Of a DNA stretch of 32,100 nucleotides, positions 3,402-32,100 are shown piece after piece. This DNA is from an uncultured Bacteroidales bacterium (GTDB taxonomy: Bacteria; Bacteroidota; Bacteroidia; Bacteroidales; Paludibacteraceae). Both the position numbers and the translations under genes were made by a program. The notes beneath the pieces were generated by a model. The model did no database searches. It was not told where the DNA came from and saw only the letters and a program-made list of their open reading frames with translations. Every line of letters starts with the position of its first letter. The stretch's first letter is position 1. The stretch covers positions 1-32,100 of the forward strand of contig CADAZU010000016.1 of the NCBI GenBank assembly GCA_902792535.1. Direction: 5' to 3'.

Positions 3402-3445
3402 AGCTTGTTTTCTACCGTTATTCTCCCGACAATGTCATACTAACA

Positions 3446-3484
3446 ACCCACTAATCACCCACTAATCACCCACTAATCACCCAC
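3446..3484. repeat. 11-bp tandem repeat (ACCCACTAATC x3 plus partial fourth) at the kdsC 3' end
   Basis: Three perfect copies at 3446-3456, 3457-3467 and 3468-3478 are followed by ACCCAC. Read on the minus strand the unit is GATTAGTGGGT. The array carries the kdsC stop codon (3473-3475), and because 11 is not a multiple of 3 it puts stops in all three minus frames. Confidence 0.9.
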
Positions 3485-4027
3485 TCGTACACCGATGGCG
3501 GCACGTAAATGATTCATTTCCGTCAGGATGGAATCTGTGATTTCTCTGATGGCTCCTTGTCCACCGGGTGTGGCGAGGATCCGTATGTCTGCTTTAGCTC
3601 CGTTGGCGCGCGCGATAGCTTTCACTTCGCGCCGCGCGTTCGGCGGGCAACAAGGGAAGCCCACCGCGGAGAGGAGGTCGATGTCATTGATGTCGTCGCC
3701 AACGTAACACACCTCGTCGAGGGTGATGTCCAATTTCGCGCATATCCGTTGCGCTGCCTGAAGTTTCGTCAGACATTCGCCGTTGACGCGGCTGCCGACG
3801 CCGAGGTAGAGGAACTGCAGTTTGAGTTTGTCCGCACGCGCTTTGACGACAGGTGACTGCTCGGAAGTGAGGATGCCGCAAGGGATCCCCGCCTGCTGCA
3901 GCAGAACCATTCCCATGCCGTCATAGACACAGAATCGTTTCATCGCTTCGCCTTCGGCGGTGTAGTACATCCCGCCGTCCGTGAGACAACCGTCCACGTC
4001 TGTGAGGAATAATTTAATTGAACGCAT
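3473..4027 (-). CDS. kdsC: 3-deoxy-D-manno-octulosonate-8-phosphate phosphatase (KdsC), HAD superfamily
   Basis: This 184-residue protein has the length and plain HAD core of KdsC. Motif I is DVDGCLTDG (residues 10-18, nucleophile D10 and acid D12), motif II includes T54 in GILTSEQ, and motif III/IV is YVGDDINDIDLL (108-119). The GGQGAIRE tail motif (155-162) is typical of the KdsC C-terminal arm, which completes the neighbouring active site in the tetramer. It removes phosphate from Kdo-8-phosphate in the cytosol. Its start overlaps the thiL stop by 14 bp. kpsF (preceding Kdo steps) and kdsB (next step) are in the window; kdsA is not. A nonulosonate-9-phosphate phosphatase role is a less likely alternative. 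The last residues come from an 11-bp tandem repeat. Confidence 0.9.
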   Translation of the reverse strand: MRSIKLFLTDVDGCLTDGGMYYTAEGEAMKRFCVYDGMGMVLLQQAGIPCGILTSEQSPVVKARADKLKLQFLYLGVGSRVNGECLTKLQAAQRICAKLDITLDEVCYVGDDINDIDLLSAVGFPCCPPNARREVKAIARANGAKADIRILATPGGQGAIREITDSILTEMNHLRAAIGVRVGD

Positions 4028-5106: not shown

Positions 5107-5174
5107 AATTCAAAATCAAAAATTATATGTCCGGGGGCAGAAAAAGCATTTTTTTCAATAAAAATTCGTGCGCG

Positions 5175-5206
5175 TTTGCGTATTCGAAAAAAAAGTTGTA
5201 ATTTTG
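5175..5206 (+). promoter_or_regulatory. Bacteroidetes-type promoter for ruvA (and probably sprA onward)
   Basis: TTTG at 5175-5178 and TAATTTTG at 5199-5206 are separated by 20 nt, an exact match to TTTG-N19-21-TAnnTTTG. The expected start of transcription is near 5213, about 45 nt before the ruvA ATG. Confidence 0.8.
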
Positions 5207-5256
5207 TGCGCTTTTTCGCGTATGCAGGGAAAGTTTGATTAAACAGAAGAAAATAA

Positions 5257-5886
5257 ATGATTGATTATATTAAAGGCATATTAACGGAACTCAATCCGAC
5301 CGAAGCGGTGGTCGAAGCAGCGGGCGTGGGATACGCTATCGCTATTACGCTGCCCGGGTATTCGGCTATGGTGGGGAAAGAGGAGCCTTCAGCCGTCAGC
5401 CATCAGCCGTCAGAAGTGAAGTTGTTTATCACGGAAGTCATACGCGAGGACGCGCATGAGTTATACGGTTTCGTGGAGAAGAGCGAACGACGGCTGTTCG
5501 AGCTGCTGATGACCGTGAGCGGCGTGGGTGCTTCGACCGCACGCATGATCATGAGCGCATTCAGCGCAGAAGAGCTGCGGATGCTGATCGCCACCGGCAA
5601 CGCCAAAGCGATGGCGAAAGTGAAAGGACTCGGGCCCAAGACTGCACAACGGATCATCGTTGATCTGAAGGACAAGGCGATCAAGTTGGACCTCGGAGGC
5701 GACCCCACAGAGATACCGATGTTAGCGCCAGAAGCGGATACCGGCGTGCGCGCCGAAGCCATCAGCGCGCTGACGATGCTCGGGTTCGCTACCGCGCCCA
5801 GCGGCAAAGCGGTCGATAAGATCCTCAAAGGCGACCCGACACTCAAAGTGGAAGCGGTTATACGAGAGGCGCTGAAAATGCTGTGA
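5257..5886 (+). CDS. ruvA: Holliday junction branch migration protein RuvA
   Basis: RuvA binds four-way junctions and loads the RuvB motor during recombination repair. The 209-residue protein has the N-terminal OB fold (MIDYIKGILTELNPTEAVVEAAGVGYAIAI; then VIREDAHELYGF), the helix-hairpin-helix region (LMTVSGVGASTARMI and VKGLGPKTAQRIIVDL), and a C-terminal UBA-like domain III (EAISALTMLGF). Residues 45-54 (SAVSHQPSEV) interrupt the OB fold where homologues run straight from a short loop into the KL.I.E strand; they are encoded by a 4 x 7-bp array at 5389-5416. Next to sprA, a pairing I recall from other Bacteroidota. The ATG is about 45 nt downstream of a good promoter. Confidence 0.95.
   Translation: MIDYIKGILTELNPTEAVVEAAGVGYAIAITLPGYSAMVGKEEPSAVSHQPSEVKLFITEVIREDAHELYGFVEKSERRLFELLMTVSGVGASTARMIMSAFSAEELRMLIATGNAKAMAKVKGLGPKTAQRIIVDLKDKAIKLDLGGDPTEIPMLAPEADTGVRAEAISALTMLGFATAPSGKAVDKILKGDPTLKVEAVIREALKML
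5389..5416. repeat. Heptamer array inside ruvA (TCAGCCG, TCAGCCA, TCAGCCG, TCAGAAG)
   Basis: Four consecutive 7-bp units, three nearly identical, lie in frame and encode SAVSHQPSEV. The same unit family occurs in rlmN (24016-24043, opposite strand), where it again encodes SHQPS. Confidence 0.8.
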
Positions 5887-5950: not shown

Positions 5951-5978
5951 TTGACATTTGACATTTGAAAGTTGAAAA
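5951..5978. repeat. Heptamer array containing the sprA start codon (TTGACAT, TTGACAT, TTGAAAG, TTGAAAA)
   Basis: Four consecutive 7-bp units each begin with TTG. The TTG of the fourth unit (5972-5974) is the only start that preserves the SprA signal peptide, and an in-frame TGA at 5966-5968 rules out anything further upstream. Confidence 0.75.
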
Positions 5979-11900: not shown

Positions 11901-13597
11901 GTCGTGGCGGTCGTCAGCGTGCCTTCAAGCCCAAGACCTACACCCAGACCGTGAGCATGAAGAAAGGCGAAGCGGTCGAGATCACCCATCGGCTCAACAG
12001 CGAGTTGCTGCAAGTGGCTGTGACCGACTCGGCAGGCAAGGTTCTGCCAGTGAGCTTCCGTCCGGCGGGTAACACCAAAGTGACCATAACGCCCAAACGC
12101 GACTGCGCGAACGCCATCGTGACTGTGACGACCAAGGATCCGAACCAGCGCACCTCCGCACAGATCGCAGGAGACATGTTCGCCTATGTAGGTACGATGT
12201 TCCGACGGCTGCAAGTGACCTACCGCGAGACGAACTCGCTGAGCGTACCGGGCTTCATGCCGGAAGCCGGATTTATGGGTCAGCGCAAAGCCAACGGCGC
12301 TTATGCTCCGGGCTTTGACTTCGCCTTCGGTTTCATCCCGAATAACTTTATGGAACGCGCGAAGACGCACGGCTGGCTCTCCGGAGACACTTCTATCGTA
12401 CAACCTGCGACACGCGCACACACCTCCGATCTGGACATCAAACTGACCTTGGAACCGCTGCCGGGATTCAAGATCCAGCTGAACGGCAAGCGATACATGG
12501 CGCAATCCACCTCGATCATTTACAGCTACGGCGACCTGCAGGAAAACATGACGGGTTCGTTCAACATCACCCAAGTAGCGATCGGAACGATCTTCAGCCG
12601 CGTCGGCAGCCAGGAAGAGAACTTCGCCAACAGTGCATTCGACCGATTCCTGGAGAACCGCGCGCTCCTGACCGACCGCGTGCAAGAGCAATACAACGGA
12701 ATGACCTTGCCGAGCACCGGATTCATGAGCAATATACCGCTCGGCACCAAATACGATCCGACGAAACACGGTACCGTCAGCCGCAACTCGGCAGACGTGC
12801 TGGTTCCTGCTTTCCTCGCGGCATACACAGGCAGAGACGCCGGAAGGATCGGTCTGAACCCCTTCTTGGGCATTCTGAAGATCCTGCCGAACTGGTCTGT
12901 GACCTACGACGGTTTAGTCAAGTTGCCGTGGATGCGCGATCATTTCAAATCCGTGACCCTGACCCACGCTTATACCTGTAAGTACGCCATCGGTTCGTAC
13001 GGCAGCTACTCGACTTGGGTTGGCGGCGACGGGAATAACAAAATGCTCGGTTTCGTTCGCGACGTAACGACCGACGCTCCGCGTCCCAGTTCTGCTTACG
13101 ACATCAGTAATGTGACGCTGACCGAAGCCTTTGCGCCACTGATCGGACTGAACTTGACGATGAAGAACTCGCTGAGCCTCAAGGCCGAATACCGCAAGCA
13201 GCGCAACCTGGCGCTGAACGTAACGAGCGTGCAGCTGACCGAAGGGCATACCTCCGAGTTCGTCATCGGAGCAGGATACACGATCAAGAATCTCAGCTTC
13301 ATCGCCAAGAAGAAAGACGGAGGACAGCGGAAAGTGAGCAACGACCTGAAACTGCAAGTGGATGTGTCCTACAAGGACGTGAAGATGCTGCTCCGCAAGG
13401 TAGAAGAAGGCATCACCCAGGCTTCGTCCGGCAATAAGGTGCTGGCGATCAAGATCTCGGCGGACTACGTCCTGAGCCAGAAGATCAACCTGCAACTCTT
13501 CTACGACCACCAAGGTACTACACCGCTGATTTCTTCCTCTTATCCGGTGAAGGCAGACAATGTAGGTCTGAATATCAAGTTGATGCTGACGAGGTAA
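5972..13597 (+). CDS. sprA: SprA/Sov-type type IX secretion system outer-membrane translocon protein
   Basis: This 2541-residue protein is in the size range of F. johnsoniae SprA and P. gingivalis Sov, the very large beta-barrel that forms the type IX secretion pore. The start is TTG: an in-frame stop lies 6 bp upstream, and a later ATG would remove the signal peptide (KNR, then a hydrophobic core to about residue 22, likely cleavage after VDA). Residues 28-60 are a Gly/Lys then Glu/Lys-rich linker. Regions resembling SprA homologues include GPADKVFGPGGVQLKMQGSA, LNFNMSYNTEASFSF, and AYIDDFESTTTNIDIHYPS in the middle. The C-terminal half alternates aromatic and polar residues as in barrel strands. 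Residues about 67-84 carry a palindrome and a degenerate heptamer array. ruvA lies upstream and the nadR-like gene begins on its last base. No other T9SS genes are in view. Confidence 0.92.
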   Translation: MKNRYFYIVLVSLLLWLPMVTMAVDAQNNGGKGKSGGKSLKELIAEEKARKEAEKAEREAREKQDQPSQRGRESGDGATVTRDGASPEAAADYVTETDSAIWAPTQVKQLGVQNFGELVQPHSSLDLQDPGNISTTVEYQPETGMYVLHTRIGETDVTTPYMLTQDEYNHYAERQIMHRYWQQKIGEVEHNNESKFDITDMKFNIGPADKVFGPGGVQLKMQGSAELLFGFKHQYIANPSLTVRARNNNIFDFDEKIQASIQGKVGSKLNFNMSYNTEASFSFDQQNLKLNYKGEEDDIIQSIEAGNVTMDLPSSLIRGSQALFGIKTNLKFGKFRIQALISQQNSQAQTVSSQGGAQMTKFDISGDSYDENRHFFLSHYFRDRYESAMASVPYIASGITINKIEVWITNKRGNYDQARNIVAFADLGENSDHTFNTSWGGAPGLAPDNNTNGLYSAIRATGFRDLQQTSQVLEGMNGMEGGNDFEKIESARLLTSSEYTLNSALGYISLKSALNQDEVLAVAYEYTFNGQVYQVGEFSTDGNEELHAPNALALKMLKNSANAPNKKGRGTWDLMMKNIYSLGATSINQDKFELYVTYRNDSVGTDVQYLNEGPEAINGKQLLRVMNLDRLDQKHNASPDGRFDFIEGLTVYASSGKIIFPVLEPFGSHLADALGNDPRLVKKYCFPELYDSTLIVAQELSEKNKFHLTGKYKGTNGSEIRLGAMNVPRGSVTVTAGGATLIENVDYTVDYTMGTVTILNTSILESGTNVDVKLENQSTFSLQRKSLFGAHLEYEFNKDLVLGGTIMHLRERPLTTKVNTGSEPLANTIWGVNGSWKTEMQWLTNAIDKIPWINATAPSTFQINAEFAHLIPGHTRDVGAVGTAYIDDFESTTTNIDIHYPSYWFLASTPTVFDESKEINQPGYNKNRALLSWFLVDPIFGYPQSNTPAHIKNDLVALSDHRTRIVYQDEIYPNRQEASNVDTKLSILNLAYYPEERGQYNISASEIGADGKMTNPKKRWGGIMRRLDNTDFEKANIEYIQFWLMDPALTNPDGYEGELYINLGDISEDILRDGKKAFEHGLPVSAADQGRVDSTVWGYVPRTTSTVVAFSNETGARAMQDVGLNGLNSEQEKTWPAYRQYLTELQGRVSADVWNRWESDRFSPRNDPAGDNFHYYRGSDFDREEVPILERYKHYNGTEGNSPATEQQTESYGTASTLTPDVEDINLDNTLNEYEKYYQYKVILRPDMMEVGRQHITEKKVRNVTLRNGETQEVTWYQFKIPLRGDSASVQKIGSIRNWKSIRFMRMYLTGFEKETHLRFATLDLVRGDWRQYTRDLAPVGTPVNSSASIDVQTVNIEENSTRTPINYVLPPGVSRQTDPGQAQLIAQNEQAMVLRVAHLSPHDARAMYKNSGYDMRQYKNLQMFVHAEQLSTVDPDLKDGDLSCFIRLGSDLRNNYYEYEIPLRLTAPGLYNNNSAADREIVWPNENMFDFALKVLTDAKTARNKAKRAGNEGVSNTIPYVIYDDANNKPQNKITVLGNPTLEDVSTIMIGVRNNGQHEASGEIWVNELRLSQFNEQGGVAAMANAALAISDIAQLNVAGRLETAGYGSIESNVLDRNMDNFYQISVSAALEGGRLFPEKAKIQMPLYVSYSNETTSPDYDPLDTDVKLSETLSTYDTKEERDSIKRMTNTVHESTSFSVSNLKVNIHSKKRDMFYDPANFSISASYNKQNEHSPEMETNYTTDHKGSFNYAYNFNPKPWEPFSKVEKVQKVKFLKEMNFYYLPQSWAFSTNMHRTFSHLKMRDLTGGASDAMDLTYSKDFTWDRNVDFKYDLTKNMKFTFQSAMNAIIDEGKYTPEILKGQYFDPEFNHDKYEAWRDTIQRSLARWGSPYTYQQVFTASWNVPLNRIPGLDALTANGSYNATYNWTRTASSTTNGVDRGNTVSSLQSWQVDGGINFETWYGKSKYWKDITQRYNGRGGRQRAFKPKTYTQTVSMKKGEAVEITHRLNSELLQVAVTDSAGKVLPVSFRPAGNTKVTITPKRDCANAIVTVTTKDPNQRTSAQIAGDMFAYVGTMFRRLQVTYRETNSLSVPGFMPEAGFMGQRKANGAYAPGFDFAFGFIPNNFMERAKTHGWLSGDTSIVQPATRAHTSDLDIKLTLEPLPGFKIQLNGKRYMAQSTSIIYSYGDLQENMTGSFNITQVAIGTIFSRVGSQEENFANSAFDRFLENRALLTDRVQEQYNGMTLPSTGFMSNIPLGTKYDPTKHGTVSRNSADVLVPAFLAAYTGRDAGRIGLNPFLGILKILPNWSVTYDGLVKLPWMRDHFKSVTLTHAYTCKYAIGSYGSYSTWVGGDGNNKMLGFVRDVTTDAPRPSSAYDISNVTLTEAFAPLIGLNLTMKNSLSLKAEYRKQRNLALNVTSVQLTEGHTSEFVIGAGYTIKNLSFIAKKKDGGQRKVSNDLKLQVDVSYKDVKMLLRKVEEGITQASSGNKVLAIKISADYVLSQKINLQLFYDHQGTTPLISSSYPVKADNVGLNIKLMLTR
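6170..6221. repeat. Palindrome plus degenerate heptamer array inside the sprA N-terminal region
   Basis: CCCTCCC and GGGAGGG (6170-6176 and 6182-6188) form a perfect 7-bp stem with a 5-nt loop. Five bases later come GGTGACG, GGGCAAC, GGTTACC, AGAGACG. The block is in frame and encodes part of the low-complexity linker after the signal peptide. The array part is weak; the palindrome is clear. Confidence 0.55.
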
Positions 13598-14103
13598 TGT
13601 ACAAGGTAGGGATCATAGGACCTGAGAGTACAGGCAAAAGCGATTTGGCGCGGTACCTGGCGAAACGATACAAGGGCGTGCTGGTGGAGGAATATGCGCG
13701 GAGGTACGTAGAGGAGAAAGGCACGACCGAGGTGAGTTATGAGGAGCTATGCGAGATAGCACGGCGGCAGATAGAGGAGATCAAGTCCTACAGCGAAGCG
13801 GTCTGTTCGTCCGAAGGACGGTCTGGACTCTGTCAAGCGAAGCCGGTCTTCTTCGACACCGAGCTGATCGTGACCAAAGTGTGGTTTGAATATGCGTTCG
13901 GGCATGTGCCGGAGTGGCTCAACGAAGCCATCAAAACCTACCCGATGGACGTCTATCTGCTGACTTATCCGGACATAGCGTGGGTACCCGACCCCGCGCG
14001 CAGCAACGGCTCGGACGAGATAAGAAAAGAATTATTTGACCGCTACGAAGCGGAGATACAAGCATTGGATACACCTTATTATATTATAACGCACGAAGAA
14101 TAG
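13597..14103 (+). CDS. NadR-type nicotinamide ribonucleoside kinase-like ATPase
   Basis: This 168-residue P-loop protein opens with MYKVGIIGPESTGKS (Walker A at residues 8-15), then VEEYARRYVEE, an RRQIEE helix, FFDTELIVTKVWFEYAFG (hydrophobic strand ending in D) and DVYLLTYPDIAWVPDP. This pattern matches the ribosylnicotinamide kinase domain of NadR and its stand-alone Bacteroidota relatives, which probably phosphorylate nicotinamide riboside for NAD salvage. The C-terminus stops at YYIITHEE and seems to lack the final helix of relatives. Residues about 68-83, between the helix and FFDTEL, look like an insertion: their DNA holds a CGTCC-gaa-GGACG palindrome between two AGCGAAGC copies. Its ATG shares one base with the sprA stop, and its TAG touches the mfd ATG, so the three genes should be co-translated. 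The exact substrate is inference. Confidence 0.75.
   Translation: MYKVGIIGPESTGKSDLARYLAKRYKGVLVEEYARRYVEEKGTTEVSYEELCEIARRQIEEIKSYSEAVCSSEGRSGLCQAKPVFFDTELIVTKVWFEYAFGHVPEWLNEAIKTYPMDVYLLTYPDIAWVPDPARSNGSDEIRKELFDRYEAEIQALDTPYYIITHEE
13792..13848. repeat. Palindromic insert flanked by direct repeats inside the nadR-like gene
   Basis: AGCGAAGC-GGTC (from 13792) and AGCGAAGC-CGGTC (from about 13837) flank a segment containing the perfect palindrome CGTCC-gaa-GGACG (13808-13820). The segment is in frame and encodes a Cys/Ser/Gly-rich stretch not expected in the NadR kinase fold. Confidence 0.45.
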
Positions 14104-17100
14104 ATGCAGATCGAGGATCTGAACATATTATTTGCCCAACACCCGGAGATGGCTTTGGCTCGCCGGGAGTTGCAGAAAGGAAAAGGAACCCACCTTCTCC
14201 TGAGCGGCTTGCACGCGAGCGCCCGCGCATTCGCGCTCTCGCAGATGCAGGCTCCGCTGTTTATCGTCATGGACAATGGCGAAGCGGCACAGTACCTCTA
14301 CGGTGACCTGCGAAGCCTCTATCCGGCAGAAAAAGGAGGAGTGTATTTCTTCCCCTCCAGCCTCCGCCGGCGCACTGCCGACGAAGCCATGGCGATCCAG
14401 CGCACTGAGACGTTAGGCGCGCTCATGCGCGCGAACAAAAATAGTATAGTGGTGACCTACCCGGAAGCCATCGCGGAGAGCGTGCCCAGCCCCAAGACGC
14501 TGGAGAAGAGTAGCATGACCCTGCGCGTGGGACAAGAGATCAGCCATTCGGAACTCAGCCGTCAATTAACGGAACTGGGCTTCGAGCATGTAGATTTCGT
14601 CTTCCAACCCGGTCAGTACGCCATCCGAGGCAGTATCATTGATATATACAGTTACAGCCATGACATACCCTACCGTTTTGACTTCTTCGGCGACGAGATA
14701 GACAGTATCAGGGAGTTTGACATCGAGGACCAGCTGAGCAAGAACAAAGTGGAGGAAGCAGAGATAGTAGGTCAGTCCTCAGAATCCGGCGATCAGCCCT
14801 CCGCCTCTATCACGGATTACCTGAACGACGAATTTATCTGGGTCAGCGACGAGTGGAGCGTCGTGAAATATAAATTAGAGGGGTTAGGGGTTACCGGTGA
14901 CGGGATACAGGAACGCAGGACGATCGAGATGGCGGAGAAGAGTTATTTCCCCACGCATAGCAAGATCGCATTTGACACCCTGCCCCAGCCTGTTTTCCAC
15001 AAGCAGTTTGACCTGCTCACCGAAGATATTCAAAAACACCTGGCGGAGGGATACAAGATCTATATCTTAGCCGAGCAGAAGAAACAGTTGGACCGCCTGC
15101 AAGCCATCTTGGGTGAGGACATCTTCATCCCGATCAATGCAACGATTCATGAAGGCTTTGTGGATCGGGGGCTGAAGGTTTGCTGCTATACCGACCATCA
15201 GATATTTGAGCGTTTCCACCGTGTAAGAGTCTCCAGCGAGAATGCCCGACGCGGCAAAGCAATCATCACCCTGCGGGAGATCAACCAGCTGCAAATAGGC
15301 GATTATGTCGTTCATTCCGACCATGGTATAGCACGGTTTGGCGGGTTGGTGACCACTCCGGTGAATGGCAAGCCACAGGAGATGATCAAGCTCAATTACC
15401 GGGACGGAGCGAATGTGTTTGTCTCCATTCATAACCTGCACCGGATCAGCAAATACAAGGGTCGCGAAGGCAGCGAGCCGACGATCGCGCGTTTAGGCAG
15501 CGGTCAATGGGAACGACTCAAAGAGCGGACCAAAGACAAAGTCAAAGACATAGCGCGAGACCTGATACGGCTCTATGCCACCCGCAAGCAGCAGCAAGGC
15601 TTTGCCTACTCGCCGGACGGGTATATGCAGCACGAGTTGGAGGCTTCGTTCCTATACGAAGACACACCGGACCAGGCAAAGGCTACGGCGGATGTCAAAC
15701 ACGATCTGGAAAGCCCGATGCCGATGGATAGGTTGGTCTGCGGAGACGTCGGTTTCGGCAAGACTGAGGTAGCCATGCGGGCAGCCTTCAAGGTCGCGAC
15801 CGATGGCAAACAAGTAGCGGTCTTGGTGCCCACTACGGTGCTGGCTCTGCAACATTATAACACCTTCCGCGAGCGAATGAAGAACATGCCGGTGCGGATC
15901 GAATATATCAGCCGGCTCAAGTCCGCCAAAGAGATCAAAGAGCTACTCGCAGACCTGGAAGCAGGCAAAATCGATATCCTGATCGGCACCCATAAGATCA
16001 TTGGCAAGAACGTCAAATGGCACGACCTGGGGCTTCTGATTATAGACGAGGAACAGAAATTCGGCGTTGCAGCCAAAGAGAAACTGAAGAGCCTCCGGGC
16101 GAACATTGATGTATTGACCTTGACAGCGACCCCGATCCCACGCACTCTGCAGTTCTCGCTACTGGGTGCCCGCGACCTGAGCGTCATGACGACCCCGCCG
16201 CCCAACAGGTACCCCGTGCAGACAGAACTGATCACCATTGACGACGAAGATATTATCAAAGAGGCGATCGATATGGAGATGGAGCGCAACGGTCAGATCT
16301 TCATCGTCAACAACAGAATCGAGATGCTACCTCGGATCGAGAACCGTATCCGCAAGTTATGTCCCGAGGCACGAATCATTGTGGCGCACGGTCAATTACC
16401 GGCAGGCGAGATGGAGGAGCGGTTGGAGGCATTTATCAATTACGATGCGGACATTCTGATCTCCACCACCATCATTGAGTCGGGCGTGGATATACCGAAC
16501 GTGAACACGATCTTGATCTTCAGCGCACACCAATACGGCTTGGCAGATCTGCACCAGCTACGCGGACGCGTGGGACGGTCGAACAGAAAGGCTTATTGCT
16601 ATCTGATTGCACCGGAGAAAGAGCTGCTGACCGAAGACGCCCGGAGGAGACTGGAGGCGCTGAGCACCTTCGCCGAATTAGGCGCAGGATTCAATCTGGC
16701 GATGCAAGATCTGGACATCCGCGGCGCAGGAAACCTGTTAGGAGCCGAGCAATCCGGATTCATTGCCGACTTGGGATACGAGACTTATCAGCGGATACTG
16801 AACGAAGCCGTAGAGGAATTGAAAGAAGAAATGGGGGCTGAACTCAGTGAAGCAAATTCGTCCGGTCTCGACGGAACAATGTTTCCTAATGACAAGCGGA
16901 CTTGGTGCAGCGACGCCCAATTGGAGACGGATATAGCCGTTTGTTTTCCGAACGATTACATCGAGAATATCTCCGAGCGCATCACCCTCTACCGCGAGCT
17001 GGACAGCCTGCATAGCGAAGAACAACTGCTGGAGTACCGCAAGCGGCTGATAGACCGTTTTGGTCCGCTGCCCGAAGCGGCAGAGGAGCTATTGGAAGTA

Positions 17101-23158: not shown

Positions 23159-23186
23159 GGTTACGGGTTACCGGTTACCGGTTAAG
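23159..23186. repeat. Heptamer array at the rlmN 3' end (GGTTACG, GGTTACC, GGTTACC, GGTTAAG)
   Basis: Four consecutive 7-bp units cover the convergent lytTR/rlmN junction. On the minus strand they encode the last residues of RlmN and contain its TAA stop (23168-23170). Confidence 0.8.
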
Positions 23187-24289
23187 GAATTGACCAGCAT
23201 ACCGCAGGCGGCAAGAATGTCTTCTCCCCGTGAACGGCGGATAGTAGAGGTAACCTCATTAGCGGTCAAATAATCCCGCAGCCACTCCATCTGTTTCTCA
23301 TCAGAACCGGGGAAATGGCGACTCTCTTTATTCGTACGGGCAACCTCCTCCACTCCTTCGTGAAAACGAATCAGATTGATCCGGCAGTTAAGACCTCTTA
23401 ATAGCCGGATTATTTCTTTGGCATGCTTGGGGCTGTCGTTCTGCCCTGCCCAGCAGATATACTCAAAGCTGACTCTCCGCTGGTGGGACCAGTCGTATTG
23501 CTTGATCAACGCTACAACCTCCGTAATAGGCATGATCTTCTCTGCCGGCATGATTCGGGCACGCTCAGCGCTGAATGGGTTATGCATCGACACAGCCAGA
23601 TGGCATTCGCTCCCGTCCAGAAAACGCTTCATTGCGGGAATACCTACCGTTGAGACGGTGATACGCTTAGGCGACCAGGCGCAGGCGTAGGAAGCAGTCA
23701 TGATATCCAAAGTCCGCAGTACCTCATCTATGTTGTCCATCGGTTCTCCTTCGCCCATAAAGACAAGATTGGAAAGCGGTTCACGACCGTCCGCGGAAGC
23801 CATGGCGTCTATCTCGAATATCTGATTGAGAATATCCGCTGCCGGGAGGTTTCCGTGAAAACCGAGTGTCCCGGTCATGCAGAACCGGCAACCCATCTTG
23901 CACCCAGCTTGCGTTGAGACGCATAGCGTAGCGCGGTCGTCCTCCGGGATATAGACGCTCTCTATGAATGTTTTCCCCCGCCCCTCCTCTGAAAGGAGAG
24001 AGTGCTCCTGATGAGGGCTGATGGTTGACGGCTGATGGCTAACTTCAAAGAGATATTTGCGGGTTCCGTCTGCGCTGACAGCTTCTCGCACTGGAGCATG
24101 GCGTCCTATCGTATAACGGGCTTTGAGCGCCTCCCTGCCTTTGAGCGAGATATTGGTCATCTCGTCGAAAGAGCGCACTCTGCGGACATAAAGCCACTCC
24201 GCCAACTGCTTGCCGGCGAACTTAGGCAGACCCGTACCGATAGCCACGGACTGCAATTCCTCTAATGTCTTGCCTAATAAAGCTTCCAA
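23168..24289 (-). CDS. rlmN: 23S rRNA (adenine-C2)/tRNA methyltransferase RlmN
   Basis: RlmN is a radical-SAM enzyme that methylates A2503 of 23S rRNA and A37 of some tRNAs. The 373-residue protein carries the 4Fe-4S motif CKMGCRFC (C130, C134, C137), FMGEGEPMDNIDEV, TVSTVGI, LAVSMHNP, and the C-terminal RRSRGEDILAACGML whose Cys is the methyl-carrying or resolving residue. The start is TTG, inside the last unit of a heptamer array; an in-frame TGA lies two codons upstream and the N-terminus MEALLGKTLEELQ aligns with homologues, so TTG is the most likely start. Residues about 84-105, between KYLFEV and FIESVYIPEDDR, look like an insertion made of a heptamer array plus a hairpin. The last residues come from another array. 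It is the final gene of a long minus-strand run. Confidence 0.94.
   Translation of the reverse strand: MEALLGKTLEELQSVAIGTGLPKFAGKQLAEWLYVRRVRSFDEMTNISLKGREALKARYTIGRHAPVREAVSADGTRKYLFEVSHQPSTISPHQEHSLLSEEGRGKTFIESVYIPEDDRATLCVSTQAGCKMGCRFCMTGTLGFHGNLPAADILNQIFEIDAMASADGREPLSNLVFMGEGEPMDNIDEVLRTLDIMTASYACAWSPKRITVSTVGIPAMKRFLDGSECHLAVSMHNPFSAERARIMPAEKIMPITEVVALIKQYDWSHQRRVSFEYICWAGQNDSPKHAKEIIRLLRGLNCRINLIRFHEGVEEVARTNKESRHFPGSDEKQMEWLRDYLTANEVTSTIRRSRGEDILAACGMLVNSLTGNR
23981..24043. repeat. Hairpin plus heptamer array inside rlmN (GGCTGAT, GGTTGAC, GGCTGAT, GGCTAAC)
   Basis: The four 7-bp units occupy 24016-24043. CTCCT and AGGAG (23984-23988, 23994-23998) form a short hairpin next to them. 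On the coding strand the unit is ATCAGCC, the same as the ruvA array, and it encodes VSHQPSTISP in RlmN. Confidence 0.75.
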
Positions 24290-24307
24290 TTCTCAATTCT
24301 CAATTCT
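24287..24307. repeat. Heptamer array at the rlmN start (CAATTCT x3)
   Basis: Three identical 7-bp units; on the minus strand each reads AGAATTG and the last TTG is the rlmN start codon. Confidence 0.8.
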
Positions 24308-27850: not shown

Positions 27851-27878
27851 TAATGAATAATGATTAATGAATAATGAA
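27851..27878. repeat. Heptamer array between rseP and dxr (TAATGAA, TAATGAT, TAATGAA, TAATGAA)
   Basis: Four near-identical 7-bp units lie between the dxr stop (27881-27883) and the rseP GTG start, with almost nothing else in the gap. Confidence 0.85.
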
Positions 27879-27880
27879 TA

Positions 27881-29035: not shown

Positions 29036-29838
29036 ACGATTACCTCCTCGGGGTTGACGTGTTTGCCGCCGTCCCATAGTTCTAACTCGATGTCATGTTC
29101 TCCGTCGGCTATGCCGATGGACTCGCCGCTCTCTACTTTGACGCCTTGCGACTTGAGCGCACGACCGATATGGCGATAGATCGTGACGTAAGAGCCATCC
29201 TGGATCGTCAGCGAGAAGGTATTATCCGCCATTCGCTCTACGGATACCACTACGCCTCTTGTCGTCGCTAATATATTCTCGTTCTTCGCCGTGTGTATCA
29301 TCGCGCCGTATATCTTCGCGTCAGGTCGGGAGCTCTGAACGATTGTTCCTTTCACCGGGCGGTATAATTTCCGTACTCCGGTCGGCATGGCGTTCTCGAA
29401 TAGCAACAGCCGGTCGCGCTCTTTCTGCTCGTACTGGGTCATAAACGCCTCCGTCGCCTCGTTCCTCCGGGCAGCAATCTGCTCGCGCTCGATCCGCTGC
29501 AGGCTATCCAAACTCCGGATGCTGTCCGACTCAATATCTCCGGCTGCCACTTGTCTGATCACATCCAGGTATTGCCGCTGTAACACCAGATCGGCTTGGA
29601 GACTGTCAACCCGGGCGGATTCCTGCACCAACTGCTGCCGCAGACTGGCGCTGTATCCGGGAAGGATATTGCGCAGCGGCGTATAGACGATCAACACGGA
29701 AAGCAGCACGATCAGCGATATGATCGTGATCGTGATTACGCTGATGGCACCTAACAGCGTGACGCGGAAGTGAAATACCTCCCGCAGCGTCAGGTCATCC
29801 AGCATTGCCAACCTATATTTCCGTCTCTTGCTACTCAA
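29029..29838 (-). CDS. Membrane-anchored degenerate M23 (LytM) domain protein
   Basis: The 269-residue protein has a basic N-terminus, one membrane helix (about 27-52), a coiled-coil-like periplasmic stalk (about 62-145) and a C-terminal LytM fold. Recognisable LytM features are ILATTRGVVVSV, LTIQDGSYVTIYRHIG, VKVESGESIGIADGE and ELELWDGGKHVNPEEVI. The zinc ligands are missing: the usual HxxxD reads YGAMI, and the HLHFE motif is reduced to EHDIELE. I infer a non-catalytic protein, perhaps an activator of amidases like EnvC or NlpD, or a scaffold. The start is TTG within a heptamer array; the following residues SSKRRKYRL fit an N-in anchor. It follows the fumarase gene by 24 bp and overlaps dxr. 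Confidence 0.8.
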   Translation of the reverse strand: MSSKRRKYRLAMLDDLTLREVFHFRVTLLGAISVITITIISLIVLLSVLIVYTPLRNILPGYSASLRQQLVQESARVDSLQADLVLQRQYLDVIRQVAAGDIESDSIRSLDSLQRIEREQIAARRNEATEAFMTQYEQKERDRLLLFENAMPTGVRKLYRPVKGTIVQSSRPDAKIYGAMIHTAKNENILATTRGVVVSVERMADNTFSLTIQDGSYVTIYRHIGRALKSQGVKVESGESIGIADGEHDIELELWDGGKHVNPEEVIVW

Positions 29839-29867
29839 TTTTCAACTCTCAATTCTCAATTCTCACA
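29836..29867. repeat. Heptamer array at the fumarase stop and M23 start
   Basis: On the plus strand CAATTTT, CAACTCT, CAATTCT, CAATTCT run in series. On the minus strand the array starts at the fumarase TGA and ends with the TTG start of the M23 gene. Confidence 0.8.
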
Positions 29868-31500
29868 AGATCGTGCATCCCTTGCAGGGTTTGAGCATCT
29901 TGAAGAAGTCATTTCCTTTATCGTCCACGAGGATGAATGCGGGGAAGTCCTCTACCTCAATCTTCCAGATCGCTTCCATACCCAGCTCCGGATATTCCAC
30001 ACATTCGATACTCTTGATATTATTCTGCGCGAGTATCGCCGCCGGACCTCCGATTGAGCCTAAATAGAAGCCACCATGTTTTTGGCAGGCATTCGTTACG
30101 TCAATCGACCGGTTACCCTTAGCGAGCATAATGAGCGAGCCGCCTTTCTCCTGGAACTCATCTACGTATGGATCCATTCGTCCAGCCGTCGTCGGTCCCA
30201 TCGAACCGCACGCCATGCCAGCCGGAGTCTTCGCCGGACCGGCATAGTAAATCGGGTGGTTCTGCAGGTACTCCGGCATCGGTTCGCCGGCATCCAGACG
30301 CGCTTTGATCTTCGCATGCGCTATATCACGACCTACAATAATCGTACCATTCAGGCTCAACCGCGTGCCGATCGGATATTTTGTCAAGATCGCACAGACA
30401 TCTTTCATCGGTTGGTTCAGATCAATCCGTACGGCGTCGCCTTCTCCGGCTTGGCGCAACTCGGCGGGGATCAACTCACCGGGGTTGGTGTCCAGTTTCT
30501 CAATCCAGATACCATCCTTGTTGATCTTGCATTTGATATTGCGGTCGGCGGAGCAGCTGACTCCCAGACCGATCGGGCAGCTGGCTCCATGGCGGGGCAG
30601 ACGAACCACCCGCACGTCATGCGCCATGTATTTGCCGCCGAACTGCGCACCGAGTCCGATCTTATATGCCTCTTTGAGCAACTCTTTCTCCAGCTCTACA
30701 TCGCGGAAAGCGCGTCCGGTCTCGTCGCCGGTGGTCGGCAGCGAGTCGTAGTAATGGGTGCTCGCCAGTTTGACGGTCAGCAGGTTCTTCTCCGCACTGG
30801 TACCGCCAATCACGATCGCGATATGGTAAGGAGGACAAGCCGCCGTTCCCAGAGATTTCATCTTCTCCACGAGGAAAGGCACGAGCGTGCCCGGGTTCTG
30901 GATACGCGCCTTGGTCTCTTGATACAGATAGGTCTTGTTGGCGCTTCCGCCGCCTTTGGTCACGCAAAGGAACCTATACTCTGCTCCCTCAGCCGCCTCG
31001 ATATCGATCTGCGCAGGCAGGTTGCATTTGGTATTCACCTCGTCGTACATGGTGAGCGGAGCATTCTGCGAATAGCGCAGGTTGCACTCCGTATAGGTAT
31101 TGAATACACCGCGGCTCAACGCCTCTTCGTCGCTGAAACCGGTCCATACCTGCTGTCCCTTCTCTCCGTGAATAATTGCCGTTCCGGTATCTTGGCATAG
31201 CGGCAACTGTCCTTTGCAAGCCACCTCTGCATTACGCAGAAACGTCAGCGCTACATATTTGTCGTTCGCCGAAGCCTCCGGGTCACGCAGGATCTTCGCT
31301 ACTTGCTCGTTGTGAGCCCTCCGTAGCATGAAACTAACATCGTGAAAGGCTTGTTGCGCCATGAGCGTCAGTGCTTCCGGCGCTACTTTCAAGATTTCAT
31401 GACCCTCAAACTCGCTGACAGATACATAATCTTTGGTCAGCAGATAATACTCAGTCTCGTCTTTTCCGAGCTGAAACATCGGTGCGTATTTGAATTCCAT
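29863..31500 (-). CDS. fumB: Class I (iron-sulfur) fumarate hydratase
   Basis: This enzyme interconverts fumarate and malate, in anaerobic Bacteroidota serving the reductive branch to succinate. The 545 residues match class I fumarases. Cluster cysteines are C102 (in LCQDTGTA), C222 (TAACPPYH) and C316 (VSCSADRN). Other hallmarks are [33 protein letters not shown] and the terminal [13 protein letters not shown] chose the ATG at 31498-31500 because the promoter -7 element lies just upstream at 31539-31546; a longer frame reaching 31569 starts upstream of the predicted transcription start. It is the first gene of the minus-strand run to rlmN. The FumA/FumB distinction cannot be made from sequence. 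Confidence 0.95.
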
Positions 31501-31538
31501 ATCAAGTGTTTTTTTTAATTCCACACAATTTGCGGCTG

Positions 31539-31570
31539 CAAAGTTACTGCTTTTTTTCGATATATGCAAA
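31539..31570 (-). promoter_or_regulatory. Bacteroidetes-type promoter for the fumarase run
   Basis: On the minus strand TTTG (31567-31570) and TAACTTTG (31539-31546) are separated by 20 nt, an exact consensus match. The -33 element is part of the T-tract of the upstream terminator. Confidence 0.8.
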
Positions 31571-31597
31571 AAAAAGCGCCCCGAGGGACGCTTTTTT
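31568..31597 (-). terminator. Intrinsic terminator of the barrel-protein gene
   Basis: On the minus strand an A-run, GCGTCCC, a short loop and GGGCGC are followed by eight T residues. The G-U pair in the stem forms only in the minus-strand RNA, so this is oriented to stop the gene ending at 31638. A second small hairpin, GCGACT-aaa-AGTCGC, precedes it at 31607-31621. Confidence 0.8.
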
Positions 31598-31637
31598 CTG
31601 TTTAGAGCGACTAAAAGTCGCGTTTAGTACTGCGTGT

Positions 31638-32100
31638 TTAGAGCTGAGAAGCTTTGAATTTCATCTTCCGGGGAAAGTTGAAGTGGTAAGCCACTTTCAC
31701 TCCCGCGTCGAAGAAACCGAGCTTGTCTGTGTAGGCACGCGTAGCGGACAGTACATCCAGGTGCGCCTTATCCGTGTCCGAAGGAGCGGTCAGATTGAAC
31801 AGACCTTCGGCATTCGGGGTGTTCTTGAATGTATTGAAGACGCTATAGTTCGCATACGCACCCAAGCCAAGCGAGTTACCACTCTTCAGGGTCCATTCAT
31901 AACCAAGCTCTGCCGTCAGCATCACATTGATATTGAACTGAATACCGTTCTTGCTCTCCGGCTGCTGGCCTTTATAGACACCCGTAACCTCTTTGTCTTG
32001 GACCGTGACACCCGTCTCCTGGAAATAAGCGGAGATATGGGTCTCGTCCTGGTTGACTGACTGGTTATAAGGCGTATAGACCGGGATCATGAATTTCGGA
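31638..32100 (-). CDS. Outer-membrane beta-barrel protein, C-terminal part (5' end outside window)
   Basis: The frame is open to the window edge, so only the last 153 residues are seen. Alternating strands typical of a barrel are visible: NGIQFNINVMLTAELGYEWTL, SLGLGAYANYSVFNTF, and the final LGFFDAGVKVAYHFNF followed by a basic tail RKMKFKASQL. An internal ATG at 32088-32090 could mimic a start, but coding continues upstream as P-K-F. The tail after the last strand is longer than usual for a barrel. Family not recognised. A strong terminator follows the stop. Confidence 0.65.
   Translation of the reverse strand, partial: PKFMIPVYTPYNQSVNQDETHISAYFQETGVTVQDKEVTGVYKGQQPESKNGIQFNINVMLTAELGYEWTLKSGNSLGLGAYANYSVFNTFKNTPNAEGLFNLTAPSDTDKAHLDVLSATRAYTDKLGFFDAGVKVAYHFNFPRKMKFKASQL

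Follow-up and report, generated by a model that had tools for sequence, protein, structure and literature searches.

Heptamer arrays of one TCAGCCR family in ruvA and rlmN of an uncultured Paludibacteraceae bacterium, and related arrays across its genome

Introduction

How do two unrelated genes, ruvA and rlmN, come to carry the same run of seven-base units encoding the same short peptide, and does the run spread as a DNA element in its own right? The question is raised by a stretch of 32,100 nucleotides from an uncultured bacterium of the Paludibacteraceae (Bacteroidales), comprising positions 1 to 32,100 of contig CADAZU010000016.1 in assembly GCA_902792535.1 and referred to below as the window. 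An earlier note, made from the sequence alone, had remarked on the shared peptide SHQPS and proposed that its source was a DNA repeat and not protein homology.

Dispersed heptamer repeats have several precedents. The cyanobacterial STRR sequences are dispersed heptamer arrays, mostly intergenic. The sections of MacGregor (2015, PMC4679880) on the TAACTGA heptamer direct repeats of Beggiatoaceae, Cyanobacteria and some Bacteroidetes describe many repeats per genome, one strand of which has stops in every frame while the other encodes an open peptide, and add that some Bacteroidetes intergenic regions contain several heptamer types. Dispersed heptamer arrays at many loci are described for Xanthomonas (GGGAATC) and Nostoc (GGGGAYT) in the relevant part of PMC4692102. 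The Rickettsia palindromic elements are treated in a portion of PMC10969869 (citing Ogata 2000, 2002) as in-frame inserts in many unrelated protein genes.

One heptamer family in ruvA and rlmN

The gene at positions 5257-5886 (plus strand) encodes the Holliday junction branch migration protein RuvA (TIGR00084, 184 bits against a cut-off of 85, with matches to RuvA structures in the PDB). Its array lies at 5389-5416 on the same strand and encodes SAVSHQPSE; the units on the coding strand are TCAGCCG (5389-5395), TCAGCCA (5396-5402), TCAGCCG (5403-5409) and TCAGAAG (5410-5416), the period itself beginning at 5384. The dual-specificity RNA methyltransferase RlmN is encoded on the minus strand at 23168-24289, with a TIGR00048 score of 286.5 bits, slightly below the cut-off of 290, and matches to RlmN structures in the PDB. 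Within its linker region, at 24016-24043, the minus strand carries a degenerate array that encodes SHQPSTISPHQ and reads TTAGCCA.TCAGCCG.TCAACCA.TCAGCCC; degenerate as it is, it still belongs to the TCAGCNR family. Direct reading of the sequence therefore bears out that the two genes carry one heptamer family in one orientation. With up to two mismatches allowed, TCAGCCRTCAGCC has eight matches in the window, six of them within these two arrays, and eight was never reached in 100 dinucleotide shuffles of the window (mean 1.88, maximum 6). Adjoining the rlmN array, at 23975-24007 on the minus strand, is a palindromic sequence of the CTCTCCTTTCAGAGGAG type, identified by eye, that encodes HSLLSEEGRG; an element resembling it, also by eye, is present in the rlmN gene of G021.

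That the two arrays share a reading frame is true but uninformative. A TCAGCCR array translates to one seven-residue cycle (S-A-I/V-S-H/R-Q-P, for example SAISHQP) in every frame because 7 is coprime with 3, so a common frame is automatic, and we dropped it as evidence. Inside genes only the orientation of the array is constrained: one strand is stop-free and the other reads TGA in every frame, so that arrays in the reverse orientation would be confined to intergenic sites or gene ends.

The array sites are variable loops

Both arrays had been thought to interrupt conserved folds. The inserts are there, but the description was overstated, as both arrays fall in loops that are variable in related genomes. 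RuvA and RlmN were searched for in 41 genomes (our own, G000, with 24 of its genus and 16 of its order), and each protein was matched in 39 of the 41. The RuvA alignment comprised 30 loci, namely our own, 23 from congeners and six from the same order, with nine further same-order matches outside it; a later RuvA alignment used 28 of the 29 relatives (L049, which is partial, was omitted). The later RlmN alignment used 25 of 29 relatives, omitting L071, L082, L084 and L089; the rows for L071 and L084 had been misframed in the earlier alignment and are disregarded.

If the residues were ancestral protein sequence, distant homologues should carry them, a possibility partly checked in RuvA. The sequence PSAVSHQPS (RuvA residues 44-52) occurs in none of the 29 aligned relatives (23 congeners, six of the same order), and its only other carrier is the sister genome G041 (RUG11067, through locus L252), which stands outside the alignment. 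The ruvA array of G041 is identical, and is therefore older than the split between G000 and G041. The RuvA of G006 has another heptamer insert, VTGDGLPVTGDGLPVTG, in the same loop.

In RlmN, residues from about 84 to 106 form a linker of variable length before FIESVYIPE. The G000 linker combines the SHQPS (TCAGCC) array with the palindromic stretch encoding SLLSEEGRG, and that of G041 is a different sequence of 10 residues with no TCAGCCR array. Among congeners, a CTCCAAT-type array is found at this place in G022 and a CTCAACR-type array in G007; palindromic repeats are found in G021 and G002, and only a few residues in G006 and G015.

AlphaFold2 models the RuvA insert as a coil (residues 39-52) with a block mean pLDDT of 70, compared with 94 and 93 for its neighbours, and gives the RlmN insert region a pLDDT below 50 at residues 88-103. 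When RuvA is aligned with PDB structures, 7x7q shows a gap of 9 opposite the insert, and in 1bdx the insert is flanked by gaps of 5 and 4. The ruvA and rlmN array sites are thus modelled as loops, not fold cores.

Seven-base arrays across the genome

The assembly G000 (2.37 Mb in 84 contigs, 82.65% complete) contains the TCAGCCR doublet TCAGCCRTCAGCCR at 93 places with at most one mismatch, 27 of them exact, against two for the backwards pattern; the search of the genome for further TCAGCCR arrays was therefore positive. The 93 places make up 60 loci, and at least 41 of the 56 examined lie in genes; most of the 56 have the stop-free strand as the coding strand of a gene. This figure comprises 38 placed in genes by a lenient two-sided codon score, rlmN, and two assigned by gene calls; the same score put one of the 56 near a C-end and one near an N-end, and left 16 unclassified, among them rlmN and the two assigned by gene calls. 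Units of the family are mostly TCAGCNR, with TCAGTTA a rare variant. The same heptamers at some 60 loci in unrelated genes, and relatives that lack heptamers or have other sequence at the same spot, support the view that the shared peptide probably stems from a DNA repeat and not from protein homology.

The longest runs of TCAG units among the examined loci of G000, at C14:33637 (10 units) and C47:13903 (nine units), alternate between AAG and CCR or CCT units. Both are possible source arrays.

The notion of a single spreading element fared less well: the repeats are dispersed, but many heptamer families, together with palindromic repeats, take the place of one element. In 807 kb of G000, 82.5% of it coding by our own codon-usage gene calls and not by a standard gene finder, 85 period-7 arrays were found, 33 in genes, 19 at 3' edges, 3 at 5' edges and 30 intergenic. 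The 47 period-11 arrays of the same sample were distributed differently (39 intergenic, five at edges, three in genes). Samples of 391-807 kb per genome gave in-gene period-7 counts of 33 in G000, 17 in G002, 17 in G022, 19 in G018 and 29 in G041, a total of 115 from genomes that are not independent, as G000 and G041 share some arrays by descent. Shuffling each gene's own codons, a null without natural low-complexity bias, gave 0.2, 0, 0, 0.2 and 0.2 for these genomes in the same order, or about 0.6 in total. Other periods were scarcer inside genes in the five samples, with one to six arrays of period 8, none of period 10 and at most 15 of periods 9, 12 and 15; period 14 counts overlap those of period 7. 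The arrays are thus tandem 7-base units far over expectation and dispersed at many loci, as in the heptanucleotide simple repeats described elsewhere, but unlike those they are not mainly intergenic (33 inside genes, 22 at edges and 30 between genes in G000). Multi-unit orders shared among arrays showed no clear excess by eye and are not claimed.

Of the 31 array-bearing genes in the G000 sample, 20 were compared with NCBIfam; a family matched at 1e-10 in 14 cases and none did in the other six. Carriers over the family cut-off are CoaE, IlvE, a YegS-family lipid kinase, a nucleotide sugar dehydrogenase, WecB, MurE (with two arrays), MurD, MurG, an efflux adaptor subunit and LeuRS. Matches below the cut-offs, to be read as relatives only, were to an aminopeptidase, ApbE, a MurC/Mpl-like ligase and oxaloacetate decarboxylase/pyruvate carboxylase B. 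MurD, MurE, MurG and LeuRS are generally needed for growth.

Species-specific units and differing loops

The favoured units differ between genomes. TCAGCCR doublets with at most one mismatch number 93 in G000, 50 in G018 (18 exact) and 42 in G001 (two exact), and range from 0 to 15 in the other 38 genomes, for which the backwards controls range from 0 to 11. We had considered G001 as an independent bloom of TCAGCCR, and dropped it since only two of its 42 matches are exact. Doublets of GAATTGA number 108 in G000, 94 in G018, 76 in G019 and 43 in G021, with at most 13 elsewhere. Across 231 arrays from G000, G002, G022 and G018, unit sharing between pairs of arrays was 0.0372 within species and 0.0111 between species, a clustering reached in none of 500 label shuffles; for in-gene arrays alone (n = 86) the values were 0.0453 and 0.0201, reached in one of 500.

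In MurE the units of one loop are swapped between species. The loop has SDKGTKDQGPRK in G000, SDKVTKDQGPRK in G022 and SCQPSAVSHQPK in G018, while the array in the MurD loop is common to all three. G000 and G041 are 84-94% identical in DNA over the longer stretches compared, and 14 in-gene arrays of G000 could be placed in G041 by both flanks. By eye, eight of these are retained and six replaced. In G041 a different heptamer array stands in LeuRS and MurE, and perhaps at C4:57272, palindromic sequence stands in MurD, and MurG and the efflux adaptor have sequence in which no heptamer units are evident. Length differences at the 14 sites are zero in nine cases, 6 or 9 in four and 2 in one. The loop of nadR (13597-14103) shows the reverse exchange, the REP-like palindromic repeat that lies in frame at 13786-13850 (plus strand) in G000 being replaced in G041 by a TCAGCTA-type heptamer array.

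Alignment of RuvA and RlmN with relatives had been expected to reveal insertions. The residues do vary, but most array comparisons show loops of similar length and not clean insertions. An orthologue has a gap of at least five residues opposite only 14 of the 59 distinct arrays, and we accordingly rejected the idea that every array is an insertion; the remaining 45 stand opposite a similar number of residues, an arrangement that local mutation or older inserts could also yield. Counted as pairs, 15 of 89 are gapped against a control expectation of 3.8, and in two of the 15 the partner protein has no counterpart.

A difference was also seen between genes: one intergenic slot, at 816-850 in L283 and near 94250 of C7 in G000, is occupied by a TTGTACA-type array in one of these two genomes and by an AATTGAT array in the other.

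Origin of the arrays

We consider it probable that the ruvA and rlmN arrays are copies of a dispersed TCAGCNR heptamer minisatellite, which has expanded in this species and in a few of its relatives through slippage and template switching. Arrays would grow by slippage of whole 7-base units, and the differences of 7, 14, 21 and 42 bases found within arrays between G000 and G041 fit slippage. New sites would be seeded when the nascent strand, its end matching an array elsewhere over a few bases such as TCAG, jumps to that array, copies some of its units and comes back. Within a gene the array would persist only if it were stop-free, had a net length divisible by 3 and lay in a tolerant loop, and the most abundant units, as the commonest templates, would give rise to species-specific 'dialects'.

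We infer template switching from one clear site, the sole clean insertion with a visible TCAG seed. Here L252 of G041 has a 70-base intergenic stretch of ten units where G000 has a single TCAGATA, and TCAGATA recurs inside the stretch, between runs of TCAGCCR; a single round of copying between TCAG matches, with a later duplication, would leave such an arrangement. L283 (Paludibacteraceae RGIG5934, from sheep omasum) has a 50-base TCAGCCR-type stretch at the gene junction that precedes nadR, where G000 has none. The in-gene length difference of 2 bases, not being a multiple of 3, is evidence against the proposed mechanism.

The alternative that survives best, though we judge it unlikely, is that each array arose independently by local polymerase slippage, selection keeping the stop-free in-frame cases, with no copying between loci. 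The differences of 7, 14, 21 and 42 bases suit this explanation as well. The passages of PMC4679880 and PMC4692102 that cite Mrazek (2007) also report that heptamers outnumber the other long simple repeats of many repeat-rich bacteria, and show that slippage by a polymerase-sized segment has already been proposed. Independent origins should, however, produce unrelated units, whereas about 60 loci of G000 share TCAGCNR, units cluster by species and orthologous loops alternate between unrelated units. Local slippage by itself would hardly place one unit family at some 60 unrelated sites.

It appears improbable that a true mobile element, MITE or REP-like and moved by a transposase, carries the arrays as passengers or cargo. 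Palindromic repeats do occupy the same loops (nadR in G000, rlmN in G002 and G021), and Rickettsia palindromic elements enter many genes in frame (as related in part of PMC10969869), but the heptamer arrays have, by eye, neither inverted repeats at their ends nor a fixed length or a constant boundary. Inspection of ruvA and of the 70-base insert by eye showed neither a target-site duplication nor terminal inverted repeats, clean sites being few.

Homologous recombination with other congeners, in place of new arrays, is a still less probable cause of the loop differences between sister species. Some arrays are common to several members, as in the MurD loop of G000, G022 and G018, and many alternative loops exist among congeners; recombination nevertheless only moves existing loops, and leaves both their origin and the species-specific families unexplained. 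The idea that the repeats are contingency switches toggling genes by frameshift, to which every single 7-base gain or loss would lend itself, is very improbable, since the carriers include MurD, MurE, MurG and LeuRS, on which growth generally depends, the arrays are short, and all but one of the 14 in-gene arrays compared differ in length from G041 by a multiple of 3 (zero in nine cases).

Returning to copying between loci, we put forward tentatively, as a possibility short of an even chance, that an active process writes heptamer arrays in trans at short matches, overwriting protein loops so quickly that sister genomes of 84-94% DNA identity come to differ at many of these loops, with every lineage amplifying units of its own. 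A dedicated enzyme, for example a template-jumping polymerase, could lie behind such writing, and the same loop in LeuRS, MurE or RlmN would then be a readout of the current dialect. Were the explanation correct, it would provide a large natural supply of in-frame, frame-independent insertions in conserved enzymes, and heptamer arrays would be a source of protein loop variation beyond point mutation and transposons. The old question of why bacterial simple repeats favour 7 bases, and whether arrays spread between loci, would become testable, and species-specific heptamer families could act as lineage markers.

Relation to known repeats

The repeat described by MacGregor is similar in sequence: TAACTGA has the reverse complement TCAGTTA, which differs little from TCAGCCR, and its peptide LSVISYQ is similar to SAISHQP. 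TAACTGA is nevertheless not the unit here, which is mostly TCAGCNR. As portrayed in the sections of PMC4679880 concerned with it, TAACTGA is the one favoured unit; in the main genome it is found mostly between genes and close to starts, and where it enters ORFs it does so mainly at the ends of proteins, whereas here there are many species-specific families, often in conserved enzymes, and sister genomes differ at the same loop. The heptamers described in part of PMC4692102 are mostly intergenic (89%, 93% and 68%) and are G-rich quadruplex formers. With the Rickettsia elements, as they appear in the portion of PMC10969869 cited above, the present repeats share in-frame insertion in unrelated genes but not the palindrome of about 150 bases, and consist instead of tandem 7-base units with smaller palindromic repeats alongside. 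The long simple repeats of Mrazek (2007), as summarised within PMC4679880, show a 7-base excess as here, where an 11-base excess is also present; units divisible by 3 were the likeliest in genes in that summary, whereas 7 dominates inside genes here. We found no account of heptamer families inside Bacteroidales housekeeping proteins in the open PMC literature. Heptamer repeats and protein-invading palindromes such as those of Rickettsia are known, and the combination seen here was not found in our literature search.

Similar sequences extend further. Exact TCAGCCR triplets occur in many phyla, in at least 117 stretches (80 loci listed). A Prevotella MAG (L289) has two in-frame heptamer stretches in SufS and one in RNase HII, and a Bacteroidales MAG (L249) has two different heptamer stretches in a relative of CCA tRNA nucleotidyltransferase that scores below the cut-off.

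Other repeats in the window

Several further heptamer arrays lie in the window. On the minus strand, a GGTAACC-type array (23159-23184) overlaps the rlmN stop codon and an AATTGAG array (24287-24307) lies at the rlmN start; an AATTGAG-type array (29835-29865) is found at the stop codon of the ORF at 29863-31569, and an AATAATG-type array (1546-1570) runs across the stop codon of the gene at 1552-2685. Two intergenic arrays consist of TTGACAT (5951-5977) and TAATGAA (27851-27880), the latter being 7 bases shorter in G041. Inside mfd, two copies of AGGGGTT (14879-14893, plus strand) form part of LEGLGVTGDG, a peptide common to G041.

Repeats of other kinds were also noted. An 11-base tandem repeat (ACCCACTAATC) at 3439-3485 extends over the stop of the gene at 3473-4027; the stretch is matched in G041, G002 and G018, and period 11 is the second genome-wide peak. 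Before ruvA, at 5141-5219, is a promoter-like stretch matched at many places in four related genomes, which resembles the Bacteroidetes promoter motif. The repeat at 31530-31727, with a core at about 31530-31575, has numerous matches scattered through G041 and G042, and a dispersed repeat at 443-516, containing a TTCGAACGCC..GTTCGAA palindrome, has matches in G021, G022, G018 and G041.
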